A stretch of DNA of 23,195 nt from a virus (IMGVR_UViG_3300028837_000216:1-23195), one strand, 5' to 3'; shown: positions 1 to 20,899, counted from the first letter of the stretch. Program-made: numbers and translations. The notes: generated by a model from the letters alone, not told the origin.

Positions 1-482
1 ACCCATAAATCTCCACCCTTTACATACTGTGGTCCACTTTTCTGTCTAGTATCTACGTTCTTTATTTCTGTAATTTTAAATCCACAGCTTGGTAATTCTT
101 TTTCAAATCGCTCTTTCCACCAACCAGAGTAATGAATATCGCCCTTACGTCGCTGGTATCCAAAAATATACCGCAGACCCCAAGTAGATTTCCAATCCCA
201 CTTACGCTCTAGAAATAATTTACAATATACTTCAAAGTCGGGTACTCTGATTACTAGCTTTCCATTAGGCTTTAGCACTCTATACCACTCAGAAAAAGTA
301 GAATTAATATCTTCAATATGCTCAAGTAAATGAGATGAAAATATTTCGTCTACCTCTTGTGCGTTATAGGGCAACCTATCAGCACTAGTTACGTGATCTG
401 TTGCTTTAGTTTTTCTAAAATCAATGCCTACGTATCCTGGCATTCTGGTCCCGCCACATCCGACATTAAGTTTTGTTGGCAT
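1..482 (-). CDS. SAM-dependent methyltransferase, class I (partial, C-terminus beyond window edge)
   Basis: About 160 residues are visible, read from an ATG at 482 and still open at base 1. The N-terminus carries the SAM-binding motif LNVGCGG (residues 5-11), followed by an acidic residue at the end of strand 2 (GID, residue 21). Further on come SSHLLEHIED and a VLKPNGKLVIRVPD stretch, the standard post-motif pattern of the Methyltransf_11 family often found in polysaccharide and sugar clusters. An AGGAA sits just upstream of the start. The gene overlaps the end of the preceding glycosyltransferase gene by 17 bp, so it is the last visible member of a coupled six-gene operon. From context the acceptor is probably a sugar or glycan hydroxyl or a sugar nucleotide, but nothing visible fixes the substrate. 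Class is secure; substrate is unknown. Confidence 0.85.
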   Translation of the reverse strand, partial: MPTKLNVGCGGTRMPGYVGIDFRKTKATDHVTSADRLPYNAQEVDEIFSSHLLEHIEDINSTFSEWYRVLKPNGKLVIRVPDFEVYCKLFLERKWDWKSTWGLRYIFGYQRRKGDIHYSGWWKERFEKELPSCGFKITEIKNVDTRQKSGPQYVKGGDLW

Positions 483-1074
483 TTCCTATACCCCATTTAA
501 TCTTCATTTTTCGTGAATCCTCTCTCCACCACGGCTGTACTGGTTTAGCTAGATCATGATGCACATAAACATCTTTAACACAGATAGTCTTATATCCAGC
601 CTCCGCAGCACGGAAGCTAAGATCACCATCAGAGGCGTAATGAGAAAATCTCTCATCTAGGTAGCCTAGTTCTTCAAATGCTTTACGCTTTATGACTACA
701 CAAAACCAGGCCCCTCTGTTAATCTCTACTACTTCTTTAGGCATTCCTGGTATACAATTACGCTGTACACCACCACGGCAAGGCCCACCAGTAACAGCAA
801 TCATATAACTATCGTCTTCTTCTAGAGCTTCAATCATACGCTCTAACCATCCCTCTTGGTACCTTGAACTATCGTCGTTTAGATAGCAGAGGTATTCTGC
901 ACCTTGTTTTACACCTTCTCGAAAACCCTTATTAAGATTTCTAGTCGCGCCTATTCTATTCTTATCATGTATCACATACAGTTCAGCATCAACATTAGTT
1001 TTGGATATCGCAAGTTCACCTGTTACTCTAGCAACTCTTGGGTCTAATGTTGGTATTACAACTGCTACTTTCAT
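466..1074 (-). CDS. Glycosyltransferase family 2 (GT-A fold)
   Basis: This 202-residue protein resembles a compact GT2 catalytic domain. Residues 1-10 form the first strand (KVAVVIPTL). NDD at 66-68 lies at the DxD-like nucleotide-sugar/metal position. SDGDLSF (149-154) resembles the acceptor-side ED/SDxD motif, followed by a C-terminal HHD. It should transfer a sugar from a nucleotide donor to an acceptor in the cytoplasm; no membrane segment is visible. The ATG at 1074 overlaps the stop of the SDR gene upstream as ATGA, so translation is probably coupled. At 202 residues it is shorter than most GT2 enzymes (about 230-300), but all core motifs are present. Donor and acceptor are unknown; the neighbouring epimerases suggest the donor. 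Confidence 0.82.
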   Translation of the reverse strand: MKVAVVIPTLDPRVARVTGELAISKTNVDAELYVIHDKNRIGATRNLNKGFREGVKQGAEYLCYLNDDSSRYQEGWLERMIEALEEDDSYMIAVTGGPCRGGVQRNCIPGMPKEVVEINRGAWFCVVIKRKAFEELGYLDERFSHYASDGDLSFRAAEAGYKTICVKDVYVHHDLAKPVQPWWREDSRKMKIKWGIGNANKT

Positions 1075-2171
1075 CGTGATAATCCCATGTCTACCAATTT
1101 TTTATCTTCATCAACCTCATATAGTGGTTGATTTTTAGCCCACTCCACTAGCCTAGTAACACCGTCATACTCATGAACCGTTGATTTGAATTCTAGAACA
1201 TTCTCGGCTCTTCCTGTAAATGCGTATGCGTGCCGTGCATCCCCTATACGGTACTGCTCAGTACGTTGTATCTCTGAATTACTACTAGCTATGCCTTTAA
1301 TCAGGTTAGCCATAGCGTACATTTTAACTGGTATACCAGTGCCTACATTGTAGATACCAAGTGGACGACGCTCGTCAATTGCTAATACAAAAGCACTCAC
1401 AACGTCATCAATGTATACGAAGTCTCTAACCATTAAGCCGTCTTCATATACGTTAATTGGTTTACCAGATAGTGCCCAATTTGTAAACATAGAGACTATA
1501 CCAGTATACTTATTATTGATATTTTGGCCGGGACCATAAACATTAAATAGCCTTAGTATAGTTGTTGGAATATCGTAAGCATTACCTACAACTGAAAAGA
1601 TATCCTCTTGAGCAACTTTTGTCTGCCCGTAAACTGAGGTTGGTCTATTAACACAATCCTCATCCATAGGCAGAAGTTGAAGCACATTATTACAGTTCTT
1701 ACATTTAATATCCCACGTCTTTGATTTAAAATCATTAGGAGTTCTAGGGGCTGGAATACTAAACTGGTAACAGCCTTGACAAAAGTATGGACCTTCACCA
1801 TATACGGCCCTAGACGACGCTAGTACAAATTTTCTAACGCCGTGTTTCGCGGCGACTTCTGCTAATACGCCTGTACCTGTAACATTCTGATCTACATAAT
1901 TACTAATCTCATACATAGATTGTCCAGCACCGATCTGTGAGGCTAGATGAATTACTGTGTGTGGATTATACTCATTGAATAATACTTCTAATGGGGCCTT
2001 GTTTCGGACATCGCCAAATACAAAATTACTGGCTGCGTATTTAGCAGCATTAGTATTAGGATGTGCCTGTGAGTCAAGATTGTCATATATAACAACCTCT
2101 TGGTCCATATCCATAAGCCTTTTTACCAAATGCTGTCCAATAAAACCTGCACCACCTGTTACTAAAATCAT
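1071..2171 (-). CDS. NAD-dependent sugar-nucleotide epimerase/dehydratase (extended SDR) with zinc-ribbon insert
   Basis: The extended SDR protein has a Rossmann motif GGAGFIG at residues 6-12, D30 at the end of strand 2, a catalytic-region SS at 119-120, and YGQTK with Tyr181 and Lys185. An insert between the VYGEG turn and the YxxxK motif carries paired cysteines C131/C134 and C157/C160, a likely zinc ribbon. From memory, a similar four-Cys insert occurs in some dTDP-L-rhamnose 4-epimerase/UDP-glucose 4-epimerase-like SDRs, so epimerisation at C4 of a nucleotide sugar is the best guess. I chose the ATG at 2171, giving 366 residues. It starts the protein exactly at the Rossmann strand, follows a GGAGG five bases upstream, and overlaps the previous stop as ATGA. 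A longer reading to 2228 would add 19 unsupported residues inside the upstream gene. Confidence 0.85.
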   Translation of the reverse strand: MILVTGGAGFIGQHLVKRLMDMDQEVVIYDNLDSQAHPNTNAAKYAASNFVFGDVRNKAPLEVLFNEYNPHTVIHLASQIGAGQSMYEISNYVDQNVTGTGVLAEVAAKHGVRKFVLASSRAVYGEGPYFCQGCYQFSIPAPRTPNDFKSKTWDIKCKNCNNVLQLLPMDEDCVNRPTSVYGQTKVAQEDIFSVVGNAYDIPTTILRLFNVYGPGQNINNKYTGIVSMFTNWALSGKPINVYEDGLMVRDFVYIDDVVSAFVLAIDERRPLGIYNVGTGIPVKMYAMANLIKGIASSNSEIQRTEQYRIGDARHAYAFTGRAENVLEFKSTVHEYDGVTRLVEWAKNQPLYEVDEDKKLVDMGLSR

Positions 2172-2989
2172 CCTATCCTCCACACATTGGGAGCTATCTC
2201 TACTTCGGGATAGCCCACTAATCCCCAACTATCAGAATTCTTGTAGGCACTCATCTTAGGCACCTTAGAAAACTTTTTACCCTTATGAGTAATTGCATGT
2301 TTACGAACCTTACGCATTATTAAATCATGGTCTGCTTTATATACTATACCGACGGCTTCCATCTTATAGCCAAGTTCGATCCAGTTCCAGCAGAAGTGTC
2401 CATCCGAGTGTGGGTTAGCGTCGTTCATGGCCTCATCGTAGCCTGGGTTATCCTTAGATGACAGCATCATAAAGTCTCCGGCAGCGTGCTGTAGCTTACC
2501 AATAAGTGAATAAGCTCGATGTGCATTCTTATTAAGTTCGTTATACGGCATATCAAAAGATGTATAAGATACGTCTTTACGCTCGGCCCGGTACATTACT
2601 CTTCTCTCGAACTCACCAGCAACTAGAAAATTCCATACTTTTTTACCTAGTACGTTGTCAGCATTCGTAGAGATTAGCCACTCATTAGCGGCCCGTCGCA
2701 TCCCTACATTCTTTGCAAAGCCCTCCATGAATTTATATCTATTGGCTACATCAGGATCAACTAATGAATCGTGTACTTCTGGACTCACCACATAGCAGCG
2801 AAATCCTAGCGGGGCTAGATCATTAGATAGTAAATCATCCGACGGTGGATTCCACTCTACGAATAGCCAGTCTATGTTAAGATTCCTGCTGTTAGCCTCT
2901 TCCTGGTTCCTAGTTACTGCGGCCAGCGTCCTTTCTCGTAAGTTACCAGAGTAAAAAGGGTCACGCCCTGCCATCATAAATGTTACCAT
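2168..2989 (-). CDS. Glycosyltransferase-like protein (GT-A-like, EWNPP family)
   Basis: The product is 273 residues and soluble, with no signal peptide. FVEWNPP at about residues 43-49, NAD at 109-111 in a strand-loop setting, and HAAGDFMMLS further on match a set of GT-A-like proteins found in sugar clusters. The NAD motif would take the place of the DxD that holds the nucleotide sugar. It begins seven bases inside the end of the upstream epimerase gene, and its own end overlaps the next SDR gene by 4 bp, so it belongs to the operon. The C-terminus is rich in Lys and ends in a Trp/Gly-rich tail. The fold class is an inference from motif pattern; substrate and linkage cannot be read. A role in building or attaching the sugar made by the neighbouring SDR enzymes is the simplest view. 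Confidence 0.6.
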   Translation of the reverse strand: MVTFMMAGRDPFYSGNLRERTLAAVTRNQEEANSRNLNIDWLFVEWNPPSDDLLSNDLAPLGFRCYVVSPEVHDSLVDPDVANRYKFMEGFAKNVGMRRAANEWLISTNADNVLGKKVWNFLVAGEFERRVMYRAERKDVSYTSFDMPYNELNKNAHRAYSLIGKLQHAAGDFMMLSSKDNPGYDEAMNDANPHSDGHFCWNWIELGYKMEAVGIVYKADHDLIMRKVRKHAITHKGKKFSKVPKMSAYKNSDSWGLVGYPEVEIAPNVWRIG

Positions 2990-4032
2990 CGTTCTTTACC
3001 TAGAGTATAAATTCCACGTAACAGATCATCTACTGTTAAGGTTGGTTTCCAGTTATAGTCTCTATATAGTTTAGAGGTATCAGTTATCCACCATATATGA
3101 TCGCCCTTTCTACCGTCTAGTATCTTCAGTGTACCAAGCATATCGTTACCACTGATTTTCTGACATAAGCTAATTGCTTCTATGATTGATACTGCGTTCT
3201 CTCTGCCGCCACCTATGTTATAAACAATGCTTTTAGGCTCTTCTATAATAGAGTCAATTGCTCTAATTACGTCAAAGGCATGAACCTGATCGCGTACTTG
3301 TTTACCTTTATAGCCATATATATTATAGGGCGTATTAGTGTATGCACATTTCATTAGATAGGATAGCATTCCATGTGCCTCTACACCAGAGTGATTACCA
3401 CCAGTAATACAACCTGCCCGCAACACCGCAGCCTTCAGTCCATATTGATATGCAAATTCTTGTACGTACAAGTCTGCTGCGGTTTTTGAGCGCCCAAAGA
3501 AGCTAGAAATTCCTTGATCTATAGAGGTCTGCTCATTAAAACCATTGTAATGTTGGGTAGCCGGTGGTAAGTCATACCTAGTTGGAAGCTCTAGATAGAT
3601 AAGGTTATTGGGATAGTTAGCATAGACCTTTATTGTAGACAGGTATATGAATACTGCATCTGGAAAGTAGTCTCTCCACAACTCAAGCATGTTTAGTGTG
3701 CCTAAAACATTAACATCAAAGTCTTCTTTAAACTCTCCTTCATGTGAGGCTTGTGCCGCACAGTGAATAATAGCTTTAAGTCCTTCCTTTTTATTATAAA
3801 GAAGTGCATTTCTAAGCCTAGCTCTATCGCGTATATCAATTGATATATTATAAAAGTTTGAGTATTTTGCTTCTAATCTATCAATATTCCATTGAGTAGA
3901 AGCGCCGATATCTCCTAGTAGTTGTCCACGTAGGTCATTGTCAATACCAATTACCTCATGAGAATGTCCGTAATATTCAACAGCTTTAGAACCTACTAAA
4001 CCACCAGCGCCCGTAATTAATATCTTGCTCAT
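2983..4032 (-). CDS. CDP-paratose 2-epimerase-like SDR
   Basis: The 349-residue extended SDR has GAGGLVG at residues 8-14 for NAD binding, YLSTIKVYA (130-138) at the catalytic Ser/Thr strand, and FFGRSKTAAD (178-187) at the YxxxK site. CITGGNHSGVEAHG, then GYKGKQVRDQVHAFDV, and finally YNIGGGREN form the signature of the CDP-paratose/CDP-tyvelose 2-epimerase branch of the SDR family. That branch inverts C2 of a CDP-dideoxyhexose during surface glycan synthesis. The residue four before Lys183 is Phe179, not the usual Tyr. The length is normal for the branch. It is coupled to the upstream SDR by an ATGA overlap and to the downstream glycosyltransferase by 7 bp. Family assignment is firm; the precise substrate is not, because no CDP-sugar dehydratase set is visible here. 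Confidence 0.82.
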   Translation of the reverse strand: MSKILITGAGGLVGSKAVEYYGHSHEVIGIDNDLRGQLLGDIGASTQWNIDRLEAKYSNFYNISIDIRDRARLRNALLYNKKEGLKAIIHCAAQASHEGEFKEDFDVNVLGTLNMLELWRDYFPDAVFIYLSTIKVYANYPNNLIYLELPTRYDLPPATQHYNGFNEQTSIDQGISSFFGRSKTAADLYVQEFAYQYGLKAAVLRAGCITGGNHSGVEAHGMLSYLMKCAYTNTPYNIYGYKGKQVRDQVHAFDVIRAIDSIIEEPKSIVYNIGGGRENAVSIIEAISLCQKISGNDMLGTLKILDGRKGDHIWWITDTSKLYRDYNWKPTLTVDDLLRGIYTLGKERW

Positions 4033-4934
4033 TTATAATCCCAATCATAATTATTCTGATACCAGTTTACTGTAAGCTGTATACCTTCTTCAAATGTTAC
4101 AAGATCAAGTTCAGCTACACCATCTAATGTAGATGGATCGCCTAATACAACTGAACCGGGCGGCTCACCTGGTCGCATAGGAATATGTACAATCTTACTA
4201 GTAGTACCGGCGGCTTCGATTACTTTCTCAGCAATCCAATTAACAGTAGTCTTTCTACCAGTACCGGCCTCATATACAGTCTGATAATCTACGCTGTCAC
4301 CAGTAGCTACGTCTACTAGAATACTAGCTAAGTCGCCGACATAGATCATATCCATGATCTGATCCCCGTCGCCGTAGACTTCAATATCCTCACCACGTAA
4401 GGCTTTAACTACAAATGTGGGGATGATCTTACGTACTGGTTTATGTTTCTGACCAGGGCCGTAAGCATTAAGCGCCCGCACCATAGCCATCTTAGTACCA
4501 TTTTCTTTATTGTACATTTTACAAAAACGAATAGCACTACTCTTAGTAATTGAGTATGAGTTATCCATCCAGTAATTTCCAACACCAATTTGTACACCCT
4601 GTACAGTGTGGAAAGCAGACGGCACCATAGCCTCAAGAATATTGAGAGTGCCAATAATATTAGTTTGTACTGATGGGATAGGCTTACGGATGGTTTCTTG
4701 TGTGCCGAGAATCCCGGCCAGATTTACAACGTAGTCCACCTTTGCCACTGCTTCTTGTACAGCTTCGTAGTCTCTGATATCTCCAAGAAATACCTCAAGA
4801 GCACAGCCACGGCACGTCTGACAAAGACGACCAAGACGATCAAAAAAAATTATTTCATATCCTCTATTAAAACATTCCTCTACTACATGTGAACCTATAA
4901 AACCATTTGCCCCTGTAACTAACACCGTTTCCAT
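4029..4934 (-). CDS. NAD-dependent epimerase/dehydratase (divergent extended SDR), first gene of the sugar operon
   Basis: The 301-residue extended SDR has GANGFIG at residues 8-14, NLAG at 71-74, and YSITK with Tyr127/Lys131. RALNAYGPGQ and VYGDGDQIMDMIYVGD lie in the substrate-binding half, as in UDP-glucose 4-epimerase and GDP-mannose dehydratase relatives. Two features are odd. The strand that normally ends in Ser-Ser/Thr and VYG reads TVQGVQIGVG, so the usual catalytic Ser/Thr is not visible, and the loop to YxxxK is short. There is also a CxxCxxC motif (C38, C41, C44) in the cofactor half. The start is firm, with AGGAGG six bases upstream. A short 56-bp non-coding gap separates it from the spike gene, so this may be a transcription or translation start for the six-gene operon. 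Substrate is unknown. Confidence 0.8.
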   Translation of the reverse strand: METVLVTGANGFIGSHVVEECFNRGYEIIFFDRLGRLCQTCRGCALEVFLGDIRDYEAVQEAVAKVDYVVNLAGILGTQETIRKPIPSVQTNIIGTLNILEAMVPSAFHTVQGVQIGVGNYWMDNSYSITKSSAIRFCKMYNKENGTKMAMVRALNAYGPGQKHKPVRKIIPTFVVKALRGEDIEVYGDGDQIMDMIYVGDLASILVDVATGDSVDYQTVYEAGTGRKTTVNWIAEKVIEAAGTTSKIVHIPMRPGEPPGSVVLGDPSTLDGVAELDLVTFEEGIQLTVNWYQNNYDWDYK

Positions 4935-7119: not shown

Positions 7120-7617
7120 TTAATCCTCTTGCCAGCATTGATTATTTATAATTCTACTAATTTGCTGAAATGCAACACCATACTCTTTGCCTAATTTAGT
7201 TAAACTTGTAGTACCTTCAGCATATTTTTCTCTAATTTCTCGAACTTTGACCCATGTTAATTTTGCTTGACCAGATGTTTCCCCTCTATTTCTACTAGTG
7301 TGCCCTTTACTTTGTTTTTTAGGGTAAATTCCTTGCTTGCGTCTTTTAATTACGGCATCTTTCATATTATCTTGATGTGTTCCTAAAAACAGATGTTTAG
7401 GATTTACACATTCGGGGTTATCACAATGATGTAATACAAATAACCCTTCTGGAATCTCATCAACAAAGGTCTGGTATGATACTCTATGAGCTAGTTGTTG
7501 TCCAGAGGCACGAAAAACTCCATAGCCTTTTTTATTTTTACTAGCTGTCCACTTCCAACAACCATTATCTACTTTATCAACCTTTTTAAAAAATCTTTGT
7601 AGTATCTTCTTATTCAT
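7120..7617 (-). CDS. Free-standing HNH endonuclease
   Basis: The 165-residue protein has the phage HNH_3 pattern. CWKWTASKNKKGYG is at residues 20-33 and LAHRVSY at 42-48. The catalytic ββα-metal core is VLHHCDNPECVNPKHLFLGT (61-80) with H64, N72 and H75, followed by the DN at 83-84. Cys65 and Cys70 may hold structural zinc. Residues 119-160 (KLTWVKVREIREKY to QQISRIINN) look like a helix-turn-helix DNA-binding tail. It cuts DNA and is probably mobile or a nicking/homing enzyme. It interrupts a run of virion genes and is much more AT-rich than its neighbours. No intron or intein boundary is visible, so it is free-standing. The RBS AGGAG lies seven bases before the ATG. Confidence 0.88.
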   Translation of the reverse strand: MNKKILQRFFKKVDKVDNGCWKWTASKNKKGYGVFRASGQQLAHRVSYQTFVDEIPEGLFVLHHCDNPECVNPKHLFLGTHQDNMKDAVIKRRKQGIYPKKQSKGHTSRNRGETSGQAKLTWVKVREIREKYAEGTTSLTKLGKEYGVAFQQISRIINNQCWQED

Positions 7618-12570: not shown

Positions 12571-14226
12571 CTAAATAGGTAATGGTTGCTCCAACATCGT
12601 TACAGTAACGGAGAACCCCCCAGAGTCGATTACTCCAGTCCCAGAAGCCGCTTTATATCTAGGGCTATCTAAATCATCTGACTTTCTTGCCCTCCAATAT
12701 ATTTCAACTTCTGTGCCAGGATAGTTAAAATTCTCAGTTGCAATCCCTGTCACAGCTTGACTGTCCTCATTCATAATCTGCGTACCATCGCTTGACTTCC
12801 AAACGGAACATTGTACATCCTGTACTGGATCATTATCTGCGTCTACACACGCCATAGTTACGGGCACATTACTAACTACATTAACAGTGTCTCCAACTCT
12901 AGCTTGATAATAGCTAAGAGTACCAGTTGTGCCAGAGTGTCCTATTGACCAAGTTTGATCTGATCCCTTATCAGGAAGATATATTGCACTAGTAGTTTGT
13001 TGATTCGATGCACTAAAATCTGTGAACGTCATATTAGTAAGATTAATAGTCAACGGTGCTGACGTTCCAAATTCTACTGCATGATGAGAACCAGCCCCTT
13101 TTGTAAATGAAGCGCCGTCCATACTTGTATCAGGATCACCTGAATCGTTCCATAAAACTGCACCACCACCCGCACTACCACCACCAGTTACGGTAGACGA
13201 ATCTACAAATGCACCAGAGATATCTCCACCACCTACATCAATTTGAGCACACCGACGCCATACACAGTCTATAGCGTCTGTATTGCTATCAAATGTAAAC
13301 GTAGACATATCAACAAATGTACATGCGTCTAGAGAAACTGTTGCATCATTAGTAGTAATCCAGCGCCCCTTAGATGCTGTGTTAGTCGGGTCAAGGCAAA
13401 TGAACTGGAACCCAGTCATCTCCACATTGGAGCTTCCGTTAACCACCTCAATAGTGTTAAAGTTAGCTGTAACCTTACGAGTATCTTGAATGAAAATTAG
13501 TGCGTCACTGTCACGAAAGTCAACTGCGTTAGTGGATGTTCCTAACTGCATCCTACCTTTCCAAAGATAACCACCCGCCACCGCTTGAATTAATCCCCAT
13601 CGTGCGGAAGTAGCATCGTTAACAGCCGCGTATCCAGCTATAGTAGCATAGTCGGCTGTCTCACCGTATTCAAAGATAGAAGAACAACGCCCAACTCGGA
13701 TGGCGTCTACCTGTAAGCTCTCACCTTTACCGATACCAGTTAGAACTTTAACCCCGCATCCAACAAATTGATGAGAACCTCCTGCATAACTGTTTACTGT
13801 ATCGTCCGCGGAAACGGTATCATTGACGGCAAAACACTGCCAGCCGCCATAAGGATATGAACCATAGTCAGAACCACCTACATCCCACGACCAAAATGTA
13901 TTATCCGCACTGCCGATAATAGCCCGTAGCCCACCATTGGCTAAGGTATCCAAGGCGTTAGGATTGTAAAAGTTGATCCAGATTAGCATAGCGCCGTCAG
14001 TAGGAACAGTGAACGTTGAGCCGTAGTCCCAAAGCAAAGTACCAACACCAGTCTTAGTAGTATCAGCCGTGACAGAATAGCTTCCCTGGATGTAAGCATA
14101 GTCCTGGTCCTGGTAGGCCGGTGGCCCCTGATCGTCCCAAGCCGTATCACTCGACTCCGCCCAACCACTTCCTTCTTCGGATAGTGTAAGATCAGTTAAA
14201 TCTTCTGTATAACTAGGTGCTGTCAT
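12571..14226 (-). CDS. Beta-helix-like virion protein (551 aa)
   Basis: Residues 1-60 are an acidic, Trp-rich lead (GWAESSDTAWDD). Residues about 60-200 form a beta-rich, possibly lectin-like region (MLIWINFYNPN, WSWDVGGSDYG). Residues about 205-420 contain serial strands with Asp/Thr turns (VEMTGFQFICLDPT, VSLDACTFVDMS, AIDCVWRRCAQIDVGG, LTINLTNMTFTDFS) that look like coils of a right-handed beta-helix. The end (VTMACVDADNDPVQDVQCSV, then EVEIYWRARKSDDLDSPRY) is a beta-sandwich-like tail seen in phage virion proteins. A surface or fibre role is likely; there is no evident enzyme site. The ATG at 14226 overlaps the previous gene by 14 bp and follows AGGTACAAG. Confidence 0.65.
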   Translation of the reverse strand: MTAPSYTEDLTDLTLSEEGSGWAESSDTAWDDQGPPAYQDQDYAYIQGSYSVTADTTKTGVGTLLWDYGSTFTVPTDGAMLIWINFYNPNALDTLANGGLRAIIGSADNTFWSWDVGGSDYGSYPYGGWQCFAVNDTVSADDTVNSYAGGSHQFVGCGVKVLTGIGKGESLQVDAIRVGRCSSIFEYGETADYATIAGYAAVNDATSARWGLIQAVAGGYLWKGRMQLGTSTNAVDFRDSDALIFIQDTRKVTANFNTIEVVNGSSNVEMTGFQFICLDPTNTASKGRWITTNDATVSLDACTFVDMSTFTFDSNTDAIDCVWRRCAQIDVGGGDISGAFVDSSTVTGGGSAGGGAVLWNDSGDPDTSMDGASFTKGAGSHHAVEFGTSAPLTINLTNMTFTDFSASNQQTTSAIYLPDKGSDQTWSIGHSGTTGTLSYYQARVGDTVNVVSNVPVTMACVDADNDPVQDVQCSVWKSSDGTQIMNEDSQAVTGIATENFNYPGTEVEIYWRARKSDDLDSPRYKAASGTGVIDSGGFSVTVTMLEQPLPI

Positions 14227-14581
14227 CTTGTACCTGTAATACTACTTTAAAGTTTTCTCTATTAAAGGCTTCAATTTGTTTATGCGCAGCATCAGAAATA
14301 GTTCCAATTACAGTACCAACCATTAGATCATTATCTCGCTCAAATACAATTCCACATTTATCGGGTCGTAATTCTAACGGCACCTCATAAGGCATTTGAA
14401 TATAAGCACACTCGCAATTGGCACAAGAAGTTGGTCGTGTCTCATAGATATTACAACCATCCTTTTCTGTCGCGTGTACACATTGAGTGAACTTAGCCTT
14501 TTTTAACTCCACTACCGGAAAAGCAAAACAACAAGCGGTACAGCCGTTACAGTTGTTTCTTTGGCTAAAAATTTGTGTCAT
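14213..14581 (-). CDS. YkgJ-like cysteine-cluster protein (putative zinc/iron chelator)
   Basis: The product is 122 residues. The N-terminus has CNGCTACC (C11, C14, C17, C18), followed by C34, GCNIYETRP (C43) and TSCANCECAY (C53, C56, C58). This is the layout of the YkgJ/CxxCxxCC family, whose members are thought to bind zinc or an iron-sulfur centre. The C-terminal half (MPYEVPLELRPDKCG, then a beta region) is less conserved. Members of the family occur sporadically in phage structural regions; their task there is not known to me. The start overlaps the end of the preceding gene by 17 bp, and the end overlaps the next gene by 14 bp. A role in virion assembly or in holding a metal is an inference from position. 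Confidence 0.78.
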   Translation of the reverse strand: MTQIFSQRNNCNGCTACCFAFPVVELKKAKFTQCVHATEKDGCNIYETRPTSCANCECAYIQMPYEVPLELRPDKCGIVFERDNDLMVGTVIGTISDAAHKQIEAFNRENFKVVLQVQDDST

Positions 14582-17876: not shown

Positions 17877-17900
17877 CTCGATTCCTACAAACAATTATGT
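17877..17900 (-). repeat. 24-bp gene-junction repeat, copy upstream of protease
   Basis: This copy differs from the one at 21552-21575 at only three of 24 positions. Both include ACATAAT, the core GTTTGTAGGA and a GAG end, and both contain the stop codon of the upstream gene. The core also occurs at 7663-7672. In this copy a separate GAGGA nearer the ATG is a better ribosome binding site, so the repeat is unlikely to be conserved only for translation. Confidence 0.65.
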
Positions 17901-19352
17901 ACTATCTGTGTCGTCGGATGCAGAATCCGCATCTGGATTTGCATCAAAAGCCATTAGTGGGTATTCTTCTAAATCGTTCTTTTCAAACCACTCTTGCTCC
18001 AATATTCTCTGCGGTAATTCAACATCTTCAAAGTTAAAGCCGCCAATATCTGCTAGAGTTTTCTTTGATAACGCACCACGCTGATATACAAGGTCTGCTA
18101 CTTCCATAAGCTTAGCTAGATCGTACAATCTGATTTCTGAGAATACTGGCTCTGGTAAGTTAACAAAGTTATTACGCTCTCTCATCTCTTTATACAATCT
18201 GTCAGGCCATGATAACGTAGCCTTGCGGATAGCCTTAATAGTCTCACCAGGAGACATTAATGCAAACTCAGCCTGTGACGTACCAGTCTTGGCTGTTTCA
18301 CCAGTTAACATGATACGGGGAAAACCCAAACCAAATAAAATGTCTAGGTTTACTGAATCGTATTTGCTATCATCTAATAGTGCATCCACATCAGGTGTAA
18401 TCCACTGAATCTCGATAGTGTGGTTTGTAAACAGCTGAAATAACCGTTCAAAATTACTGCCAGAATACCGCCATTTAAACTGCTGCCGCAGTTCTGCTAC
18501 AGCCTCGTCGTCTTCACTTGTAATAGGGAATTCATCACTACCCATCTTTACTTGCATAATAGCAGTGATAACCCTGGCAGCAATAGCATAGTCCATCTTA
18601 CGTAAATTACGTTTATGCTCAAGGGGTTCTAATACAGGTAACAAATAAGGATTAGGAAGTGGACTATCGGGTAGTGGATTACGACGAATTAGGTGTGGAT
18701 CGTCCAATTTAAATTCTGTCTTGCCTGCGTTGATAGCTCTAACATATTCTGGATATTCTTTTAATAGTAGTTGATAAGTCTCTTTATCCTCTGTATTATC
18801 AGGATATACACCCTTGTGTTTAACAAAGTAAATATCGTCTTCGCTAGGCGTGACGGTAACTACTACTCTATTAGGGATAGGTGTTTTCTTTAGTTTGATA
18901 CTAAAGGGATCACGCTTCCATAAAACGTCAGGTACGTGATATACTTTCCCTGCTGGTAGCTCTGGATGAAGCTCTGCACCAGTCTTTGTAGTCCAAGTAG
19001 CTTCTGGTACAACTAGACCGGATAGCATGTATTCCAAACCAAGGTCACGCAGATTCCAAACTAGTGAATCATTGATTGAAGAATACACACGATACTCTTC
19101 GTCGTCACAACCTTTACGCTGTAGCCTGTAATCTTTAAAGCCAATATCCAGCACCTTATTAAGCGTATTGGATACAATCGGGTCTGTCCTATAAAAGTGA
19201 TAACAGATATTTATAATCTCATAATAGTCTTTTGGGAATTGGTACTTATCAATTTCAGTATTAGGTTGTCCACTACTATACCTACCCATACCCGGTACTA
19301 TTGAGCTTGAAAAATCTGCCTTTGCTACGAATAGTCTTTCTTTATCAGCCAT
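17895..19352 (-). CDS. Portal protein
   Basis: This 485-residue portal is placed directly after large terminase. Key segments include DYYEIINICYHFYRTDPIVSN and GLEYMLSGLVVPEATW in the N-terminal half, then LLPVLEPLEHKRNLRKMDYAIA, ITAIMQVKMG and a PRIMLTGE followed by SQAEFALMSP, typical of the portal wing and crown region in SPP1/HK97-like portals. It forms the dodecameric ring through which DNA enters the head and to which terminase and tail attach. I chose ATG 19352, two bases after the terminase stop with AGGTGG upstream. A GTG at 19364 would add four residues. The length fits the family, and the acidic Asp/Ser tail is usual. Confidence 0.88.
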   Translation of the reverse strand: MADKERLFVAKADFSSSIVPGMGRYSSGQPNTEIDKYQFPKDYYEIINICYHFYRTDPIVSNTLNKVLDIGFKDYRLQRKGCDDEEYRVYSSINDSLVWNLRDLGLEYMLSGLVVPEATWTTKTGAELHPELPAGKVYHVPDVLWKRDPFSIKLKKTPIPNRVVVTVTPSEDDIYFVKHKGVYPDNTEDKETYQLLLKEYPEYVRAINAGKTEFKLDDPHLIRRNPLPDSPLPNPYLLPVLEPLEHKRNLRKMDYAIAARVITAIMQVKMGSDEFPITSEDDEAVAELRQQFKWRYSGSNFERLFQLFTNHTIEIQWITPDVDALLDDSKYDSVNLDILFGLGFPRIMLTGETAKTGTSQAEFALMSPGETIKAIRKATLSWPDRLYKEMRERNNFVNLPEPVFSEIRLYDLAKLMEVADLVYQRGALSKKTLADIGGFNFEDVELPQRILEQEWFEKNDLEEYPLMAFDANPDADSASDDTDST

Positions 19353-19354
19353 AC

Positions 19355-20899
19355 TTAATACCACCTAGAAGACCATAACTTCTTTCGTTGCATTGTAAAG
19401 CCTTCCTGCTCATACTTATAAAAGTGTGATAACATAAATGCTAACAGTGCTGCAATATTGTGGTCGTCACCACTCTTACCACCACGCTCTGTCATAGTTT
19501 TATAAATAATATGTCCAGACGGTGTGCGTGAGTAGACTGTACGTTCCAACTCTATAATTAAGTCTTCGTCATGTTTAGAAAAAATAATATTATGTGTATT
19601 TACAAACTCCTGTAAACGCTGCATACCATACGCTTTAGCACGCTCTTTTAATTCGTTACCGTCGTGATCGTAACCTACAAAAACGGAAGCATTAAAGTCT
19701 GTAGCGATTAGTGTTTGAGAAAGCCGATGTTTTTTATATTTATCATCATATAGAAGATTTTGGATGACAGGTTTACCAGCACCACCGGCATCAATGCCAA
19801 TAAACGTTGGGTCATACTTCTTCGCTATATTAGCGATAAAGTTCTGTTGCGTAGGATAGTTTACCTGTGTTAAGTTAAGCCTAAACAGAAACTTCCAACG
19901 ATCTTGAACTTTATATAAACCAAGTATAACCGTCGGCTCTGTATACCCCAAGTCAATACCTATTGCCATCTGTGAAATTTTGTTTGGCGGCATTGGCATC
20001 AAACGTAAAAGATCACCGAGTAGCATAGGGTTCTCTCTAACCTTATTTCCATAGACCTTGCTTACGAAAACGTCGTAAGGCTGGATGAACATTTTATCCC
20101 TATCGAATAGTGCGTATACAGGATTACCGTGTCTACCCAAAACAAGATGTATGTAATCCTCAGATTCTACACCGCCGAATTGTTTTATATTTCTAGATTC
20201 GTCTTCAGGTGTATATCGTGGATTAGCATGTTGTGGTATATTCCAACTAGTAAAATTTACGTCTTCAACGTCACAAAAATATAAAACGTTTCTATCACGC
20301 TGGCCGATAGGCACACCAGATACGAATAACTGTGCGCCCTCTGTCCACGTATTGTGTGTAGGCAATAGCTCAATCCAAGTGCCCCAAGGAAATACGCCAG
20401 CCTCATCTAATAAGATTACTGGTGTATGTAGGCCAATTACATTGGAACCACCACCAGTTGTACCGGCAATACGACAGTCTAATTGAAAGCCATTCTTAGC
20501 GTTAATATTAAAGATACCAGAATTGATGTTATTCCTACCAACGAAATGCTTTAAAAATGAGTGTGTAGATAACCATCGACGCAGCTTAGAGAATAGCGGT
20601 TCAAGATGTACACGGTTTGGTGTAACAATAGCAACCGGATCAGCTTCAAAAAAATTATTAACCATGTACCAAGCCGCCTTATCTAACAACGTTTCAGATT
20701 TACCAATAGCACGACCACAGCACAGTGCAACGTACATATTGTGGTCACATAGCATACCTACTTGATAGTCTGTTAACTCCCAAGGCTTATCTGTTTCTGG
20801 AATATCTAAGTTACGCAAAAACTCCGCACACCAAACAGGGTGTCGGAATATCTCGTAGAGCATAAGCTCATCTTCGGTTAGTTTTACGTCTATAGCCAT
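19355..20899 (-). CDS. Terminase large subunit (ATPase and nuclease)
   Basis: The 514-residue large terminase is complete. The ATPase half has a Walker-A-like CCGRAIGKSE (G62-S68) and Walker B VILLDEAG (D165/E166), with a TPNRVHLEPLF segment between them. The RNase-H-fold nuclease half has IGIDLGYTEP (D316), FIGIDAGGAG (D370) and GDDHNIAALL (D478/D479), the acidic residues that cut concatemers. It pumps DNA through the portal. The gene starts at ATG 20899, directly after the probable small subunit, and ends before portal. Length and motif order are normal. Type of packaging (cos or pac) cannot be decided from this alone. Confidence 0.95.
   Translation of the reverse strand: MAIDVKLTEDELMLYEIFRHPVWCAEFLRNLDIPETDKPWELTDYQVGMLCDHNMYVALCCGRAIGKSETLLDKAAWYMVNNFFEADPVAIVTPNRVHLEPLFSKLRRWLSTHSFLKHFVGRNNINSGIFNINAKNGFQLDCRIAGTTGGGSNVIGLHTPVILLDEAGVFPWGTWIELLPTHNTWTEGAQLFVSGVPIGQRDRNVLYFCDVEDVNFTSWNIPQHANPRYTPEDESRNIKQFGGVESEDYIHLVLGRHGNPVYALFDRDKMFIQPYDVFVSKVYGNKVRENPMLLGDLLRLMPMPPNKISQMAIGIDLGYTEPTVILGLYKVQDRWKFLFRLNLTQVNYPTQQNFIANIAKKYDPTFIGIDAGGAGKPVIQNLLYDDKYKKHRLSQTLIATDFNASVFVGYDHDGNELKERAKAYGMQRLQEFVNTHNIIFSKHDEDLIIELERTVYSRTPSGHIIYKTMTERGGKSGDDHNIAALLAFMLSHFYKYEQEGFTMQRKKLWSSRWY

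Follow-up and report, generated by a model that had tools for sequence, protein, structure and literature searches.

The window, by which we mean the virus record in its full 23,195 bases, is a genome fragment. Its annotated genes all lie on the minus strand, in the order RNase H-like gene, gene for the terminase large subunit (TerL), portal match, several consecutive genes whose products have no family, HNH gene, gene for a short unknown protein, beta-helix gene and a cassette of six genes, g1 to g6 (Table 1). Because TerL and the weak portal match lie in one gene run, the cassette falls on the late, virion side of a tailed phage; it is co-directional with the structural genes. From g6 to g1 the overlaps at the junctions measure 4, 7, 4, 4 and 17 bp. 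The beta-helix ORF, whose product has a C-terminal choice-of-anchor Q match (choice_anch_Q), ends 56 bp ahead of g6, and AGGAGG, a strong Shine-Dalgarno sequence, precedes the g6 ATG. A first-pass annotation had described a six-gene, translationally coupled set following directly on a beta-helix spike. Its layout is borne out, since all six minus-strand ORFs are present behind the beta-helix ORF and all five internal junctions overlap, as are its family calls for the three SDRs (Pfam Epimerase, E 1e-29 to 2e-55 for g3, g5 and g6), g2 (Glycos_transf_2), g1 (Methyltransf_11) and the spike (Beta_helix).

Table 1. Genes of the cassette and its late-region context, in window coordinates.
Feature	Position	Strand	Evidence
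g1, SAM-dependent methyltransferase, incomplete at the contig end	3..482	-	Pfam Methyltransf_11 E 1.7e-11; no stop before end
g2, GT2-type (GT-A) glycosyltransferase	466..1074	-	Glycos_transf_2 E 7.4e-6; phrog_2456 glycosyltransferase E 8.8e-10
g3, Zn-ribbon extended SDR	1071..2171	-	Epimerase E 2e-55; Cys 131, 134, 157, 160; Tyr181
g4, putative divergent GT-A-like glycosyltransferase	2168..2989	-	distant relative only
g5, CDP-tyvelose-2-epimerase-like SDR, Phe179 for catalytic Tyr	2983..4032	-	Epimerase; homologues, fold
g6, SDR of the virus-associated 'LGTQE' subfamily	4029..4934	-	Pfam Epimerase; Tyr127 and Lys131 kept; GVGN
g7, right-handed beta-helix protein (tail-spike-like), 580 residues	4991..6733	-	Beta_helix E 2.2e-18; para_beta_helix
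Portal protein (context; weak match)	17895..19364	-	phrog_2739 E 5e-11
Terminase large subunit (context)	19355..20899	-	phrog_2 E 1.8e-13; Terminase_6C

The codon frequencies of the cassette and of the other phage genes correlate at 0.92 and their GC ranges are alike, so the cassette is not a recent foreign block. A recent host passenger in a single genome had been named as the finding that would speak against a phage function; codon use led us to reject a recent passenger. The cassette has been seen in one contig. Leftward extension of the contig had also been called for, and IMG/VR scans with g5, g6, the portal and TerL did not extend the cassette beyond its cut left end. The sole contig identical to the window, L004, spans the opposite, portal/terminase side and continues about 5 kb past TerL, where it encodes a DNA polymerase of family A and a ParB-like protein. 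In the polymerase ORF (L004:852-3395, 847 residues), residues 472-515 match HNH_3 and are flanked by polymerase parts; this segment is possibly an intein or an in-frame homing insertion. In the window itself, an HNH homing-type endonuclease gene lies within the tail gene run (7120-7617), and a small Cys-rich protein with NNCNGCTACC near its start (14213-14581; phrog_9155) is encoded among the structural genes.

Within the visible part of the cassette we recognized neither a sugar kinase nor a nucleotidyltransferase, and g1 to g6 contain no membrane segment (the 19-residue hydropathy maximum is 1.46), which leaves this part without a Wzx/Wzy protein or a membrane transferase of an envelope pathway. 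For g3, the ATG at 2171 is preferable to the TTG at 2228 as start codon. Its CxxC...CxxC insertion sits between VYG and the catalytic YGQTK, whose tyrosine is Tyr181. The dTDP-L-rhamnose 4-epimerases (WbiB of B. thailandensis and MAB_4111c of M. abscessus) offer a point of comparison, in that MAB_4111c also has its Tyr at 181 (PMC11549994); this agreement, by position alone, is consistent with a pre-Tyr insertion of MAB_4111c length and serves as a lead only. Of the two glycosyltransferase-like proteins announced by the first-pass annotation, g2 stands by its direct match, and g4 is reached via a single distant relative: Pfam, PHROG and NCBIfam profile searches gave no direct family match, and the GT-A assignment is drawn from the only relative found, a phage protein of 26% identity that itself matches Glycos_transf_2 (E 1.2e-5). 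A fold prediction for g4 from two sequences gave no usable model (pLDDT 38), and scans of IMG/VR and phage records with g4, and of phage records with g2, returned no matches.

The first gene of the cassette, g6, belongs to an SDR subfamily that we recognize by the signature LGTQETI...P.P together with a shortened loop, [AG]VGNxW...YS[IL][ST]K. All 79 viral relatives inspected keep Tyr and Lys and replace the S-S-x-VYG strand by AVGN or GVGN (AAAN in four); the window g6 likewise retains Tyr127 and Lys131 and has GVGN where a Ser/Thr strand is usual. It scores below the NCBIfam cut-offs of the equivalogs for dTDP-glucose 4,6-dehydratase (131 versus 365 bits) and UDP-glucose 4-epimerase (80 versus 262 bits). 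At least 233 IMG/VR contigs encode an LGTQE SDR, and the subfamily is also represented in Microbacterium phage Magritte and several Streptomyces phages. Two bacterial samples, of 396 and 398 genomes, were drawn from the phyla to which an Acidimicrobiia and an Aquamicrobium genome belong; with five candidates scored per genome, none of the 794 yielded an LGTQE SDR at E<=1e-50, and five viral positive controls in the same search scored 1e-112 to 1e-154. A virus-associated subfamily is thereby well supported; that it is virus-only is not proven, because just five candidates were scored per genome. The open-licence literature that we searched contains no description of it. The products of Magritte gp5 (L011:2393-3307) and JustBecause gp156 (L012:9989-10939) are labelled 'UDP-glucose dehydrogenase', yet they are extended SDRs of the LGTQE type, and the label finds no support in their sequences. 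In both phages the g6 orthologue (48% and 43% identity, respectively) is followed by a glycosyltransferase (Magritte gp5-6, JustBecause gp156-157); these pairs differ from the window set in having one SDR only.

What company do the g6 relatives keep? Each 80%-identity group was represented by a single locus, which gave 41 viral groups and, at two genes on each side, 146 neighbouring proteins. These include 20 GT2, nine GT32-like and five GT17 glycosyltransferases, nine Methyltransf_24 and seven rhamnosyl O-methyltransferase-like proteins, 12 portals and terminase matches. By clustering, a portal or TerL lies within five genes of g6 in 17 of these 41 non-redundant groups. Scanned in the same way, the surroundings of viral g5 relatives contained one portal and two major head matches in 146 proteins, and the portal counts of the two sets differ with a Fisher p of 0.003, lineage being ignored. 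Since the portals adjoining g6 fall into only three groups at 60% identity, few independent lineages carry the link between g6 and the portal. In L007 and L010, a 64%-identical g6 belongs to a sugar cassette that starts just after capsid-like and GroES-like genes, and in L199 a g6 relative comes after baseplate and tail genes and a glycosyltransferase; the copies of g6 and its glycosyltransferase in Streptomyces phages lie outside any obvious head module. The cassette behind the GroES-like gene (L007:3044-11379) is long, comprising glycosyltransferases, two SDRs and a DegT aminotransferase, and two metagenome contigs carry it in identical form. We also asked whether g6-type and g5-type SDRs form a conserved pair, and rejected the idea: SDRs often precede g5 relatives, with their classes mixed, and no other fetched locus had both types together.

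For the second SDR, g5, the closest proteins of solved structure are CDP-tyvelose 2-epimerases (phmmer 1.3e-33), and an AlphaFold model (pLDDT 89) predicts an extended SDR fold closest to 1orr and 9rl0 (Foldseek best 1orr, E 1.9e-29; TM 0.86-0.89). In TyvE of T. atlanticus the catalytic triad is Thr124, Tyr164 and Lys168, Asn125 is essential (N125A is inactive), and Met85 and Gln205 are sugar-pocket positions (PMC13098431). We collected 133 distinct viral and bacterial g5 relatives with search patterns in the GYKGKQVRD and GDHxW stretches, away from the columns discussed here; the similarity ranking favours close kin. The triad Thr and Lys are kept in the subfamily (Thr133 and Lys183 in g5), but the full triad of the CDP-tyvelose 2-epimerases is absent, its Tyr being replaced by Phe (Phe179) in 132 of the 133 relatives and in the window, so that loss of the Tyr by decay of one copy is ruled out. 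Four further positions are invariant: His97 (TyvE Met85), Cys208 (Ser193), His214 (Gln199) and His220 (Gln205), of which His97, Cys208 and His220 occupy the sugar pocket in place of three residues. The window copy departs further, with Ile134 in place of the Asn125 of the TNK segment, where Asn is found in 64 of 64 bacterial and 65 of 69 viral sequences and Ile in the window alone, and with Ala95 where nearly all relatives have Pro. Because both residues differ from the subfamily and the Asn is essential in TyvE, this particular copy may be altered in function.

Judged by these residues, the active site of the subfamily looks re-tooled, unless the protein is a non-catalytic partner. The corresponding Tyr-to-Phe exchange cuts the activity of a related enzyme, UDP-glucuronate 4-epimerase, about 1200-fold (PMC7984243), so that its fixation here alongside new pocket histidines poses a question for enzymology. 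About ten bacterial loci encode a Tyr-containing paralogue directly upstream of the Phe protein, and several more have one within a few genes, an arrangement that suggests a two-subunit enzyme. The subfamily is widespread in bacteria and phages, and we found no SDR subfamily with this exchange described in the open-licence literature searched, which does not prove that no description exists.

With several SDRs and glycosyltransferases in one transcription-compatible run on a phage contig, the set is a phage nucleotide-sugar/glycosyltransferase cluster. Its first reading as such holds: it is coupled, phage-like in composition and placed inside the late region, and its most phage-specific gene, g6, turns up next to glycosyltransferases and head genes in phages that are not related. 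The accompanying view that such a set is unusual in a virion region, and could be a new virion glycosylation system, is not sustained. Clusters with several SDR epimerases or dehydratases, glycosyltransferases and methyltransferases, often near tail-fibre genes, are documented in cyanophages, pelagimyophages and jumbo phages (PMC7824862, PMC7029224, PMC9602691), and the cassette is therefore of a known kind. It differs from those clusters in being compact and coupled, in being headed by an LGTQE SDR and in lacking a kinase and a nucleotidyltransferase in the part seen; the portal and terminase of its phage have remote relatives only. Virion glycosylation, for its part, is reported for the mycobacteriophages Che8, Corndog and Myrna, where phage glycosyltransferases act on late proteins (Freeman et al. 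2023, as cited in PMC12363180 and PMC12619734). Those systems, as summarized in the citing papers, are described by their glycosyltransferases, whereas the window set adds three SDRs and a methyltransferase. Two things are new to us: an LGTQE subfamily that is associated with viruses and linked to head genes, and an SDR subfamily in which Phe naturally takes the place of the Tyr.

How might the cassette act? It probably makes an unusual sugar and attaches it to something built late in infection. We envision that one or more host nucleotide sugars would be rebuilt by the three SDRs, g6, g5 and g3 (the sugar and the order of reactions are conjectural), that the product would be transferred by the two soluble GT-A glycosyltransferases, g4 and g2, and that g1 probably O-methylates the sugar or the glycan. 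The acceptor may be a virion protein made concurrently, that is, spike, capsid or tail, and the effect might be to shield the particle or to alter its binding. A virion protein is the most likely acceptor because the cassette lies in the virion run and encodes no membrane proteins, and because cassettes of the g6 type recur next to portal, terminase, capsid or tail genes. The small number of independent portal lineages and the Streptomyces-phage copies outside a head module count against it, and no prominent glycan-attachment tract was found in the virion proteins of the window. On balance, late glycosylation of a virion protein fits best and is the reading that we favour, with a probability that we place a little short of even, and remodelling of the host surface comes close behind.

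The latter, to which we accord a substantial minority share of the probability, would have the envelope polysaccharide of the infected cell changed such that superinfection is blocked or progeny are kept off debris, near the receptor of the spike. Epimerase, glycosyltransferase and methyltransferase clusters by tail-fibre genes are usually so read in accounts of cyanophages, pelagimyophages and jumbo phages (PMC7029224, PMC7824862, PMC9602691), and opinion on similar clusters leans the same way (PMC7029224, PMC7824862). In bacteria, moreover, TagA/CpsF-type and priming glycosyltransferases are encoded in the same loci as g5 relatives (recognized by eye in neighbour clusters), and the neighbouring beta-helix protein could be a receptor-binding depolymerase. 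The visible cassette, however, has no membrane, polymerase or flippase gene, late expression allows little time for a change of the envelope, and g6 relatives occur beside portal and terminase genes and in phages of Gram-positive hosts. Microbacterium and Streptomyces have no LPS, and the presence of g6 with a glycosyltransferase in their phages argues against an LPS-only role.

Very improbable, in our estimate, is a decaying block of acquired sugar genes with little present function: Ile134 and Ala95 are confined to the window g5, the counterpart N125A abolishes activity in T. atlanticus TyvE (PMC13098431) and the cassette is known from a single contig, but six intact frames, overlapping junctions, a phage-like composition and the retention of the subfamily-specific His97, Cys208, His214 and His220 in g5 all speak against decay. 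Least probable is glycosylation or hypermodification of the phage DNA, of which phage glycosyltransferases are capable (Pyle et al. 2024, as cited in PMC12619734), but for which three SDRs and a methyltransferase are more than usual and no base hydroxymethylase or thymidylate-synthase-like gene was recognized in 28 kb (the window plus the 5 kb of L004, a weak argument because the genome is incomplete).

Returning to virion glycosylation, a bolder version of it, which we consider unlikely, is that the LGTQE SDR and its partner glycosyltransferase form a virus-specific virion-glycosylation module of many tailed phages, would produce a sugar absent from the hosts, and would work in this phage alongside another SDR, in which loss of the Tyr and gain of two His and a Cys have rebuilt the active site. 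If the LGTQE SDR does mark a sugar pathway that is confined to viruses and linked with head genes, it would provide a sequence tag by which glycosylated phages could be found in different hosts, and the cultured phages Magritte, JustBecause and Kela would allow a concrete test.

A second, related phage sugar module is found in Stenotrophomonas phage DLP5 (L013:7352-10659) and Rhodobacter phage RcZahn (L016:5351-10142), which share the order PIG-L deacetylase, SDR, aminotransferase, methyltransferase and then a glycosyltransferase; in DLP5 it lies shortly upstream of TerL.
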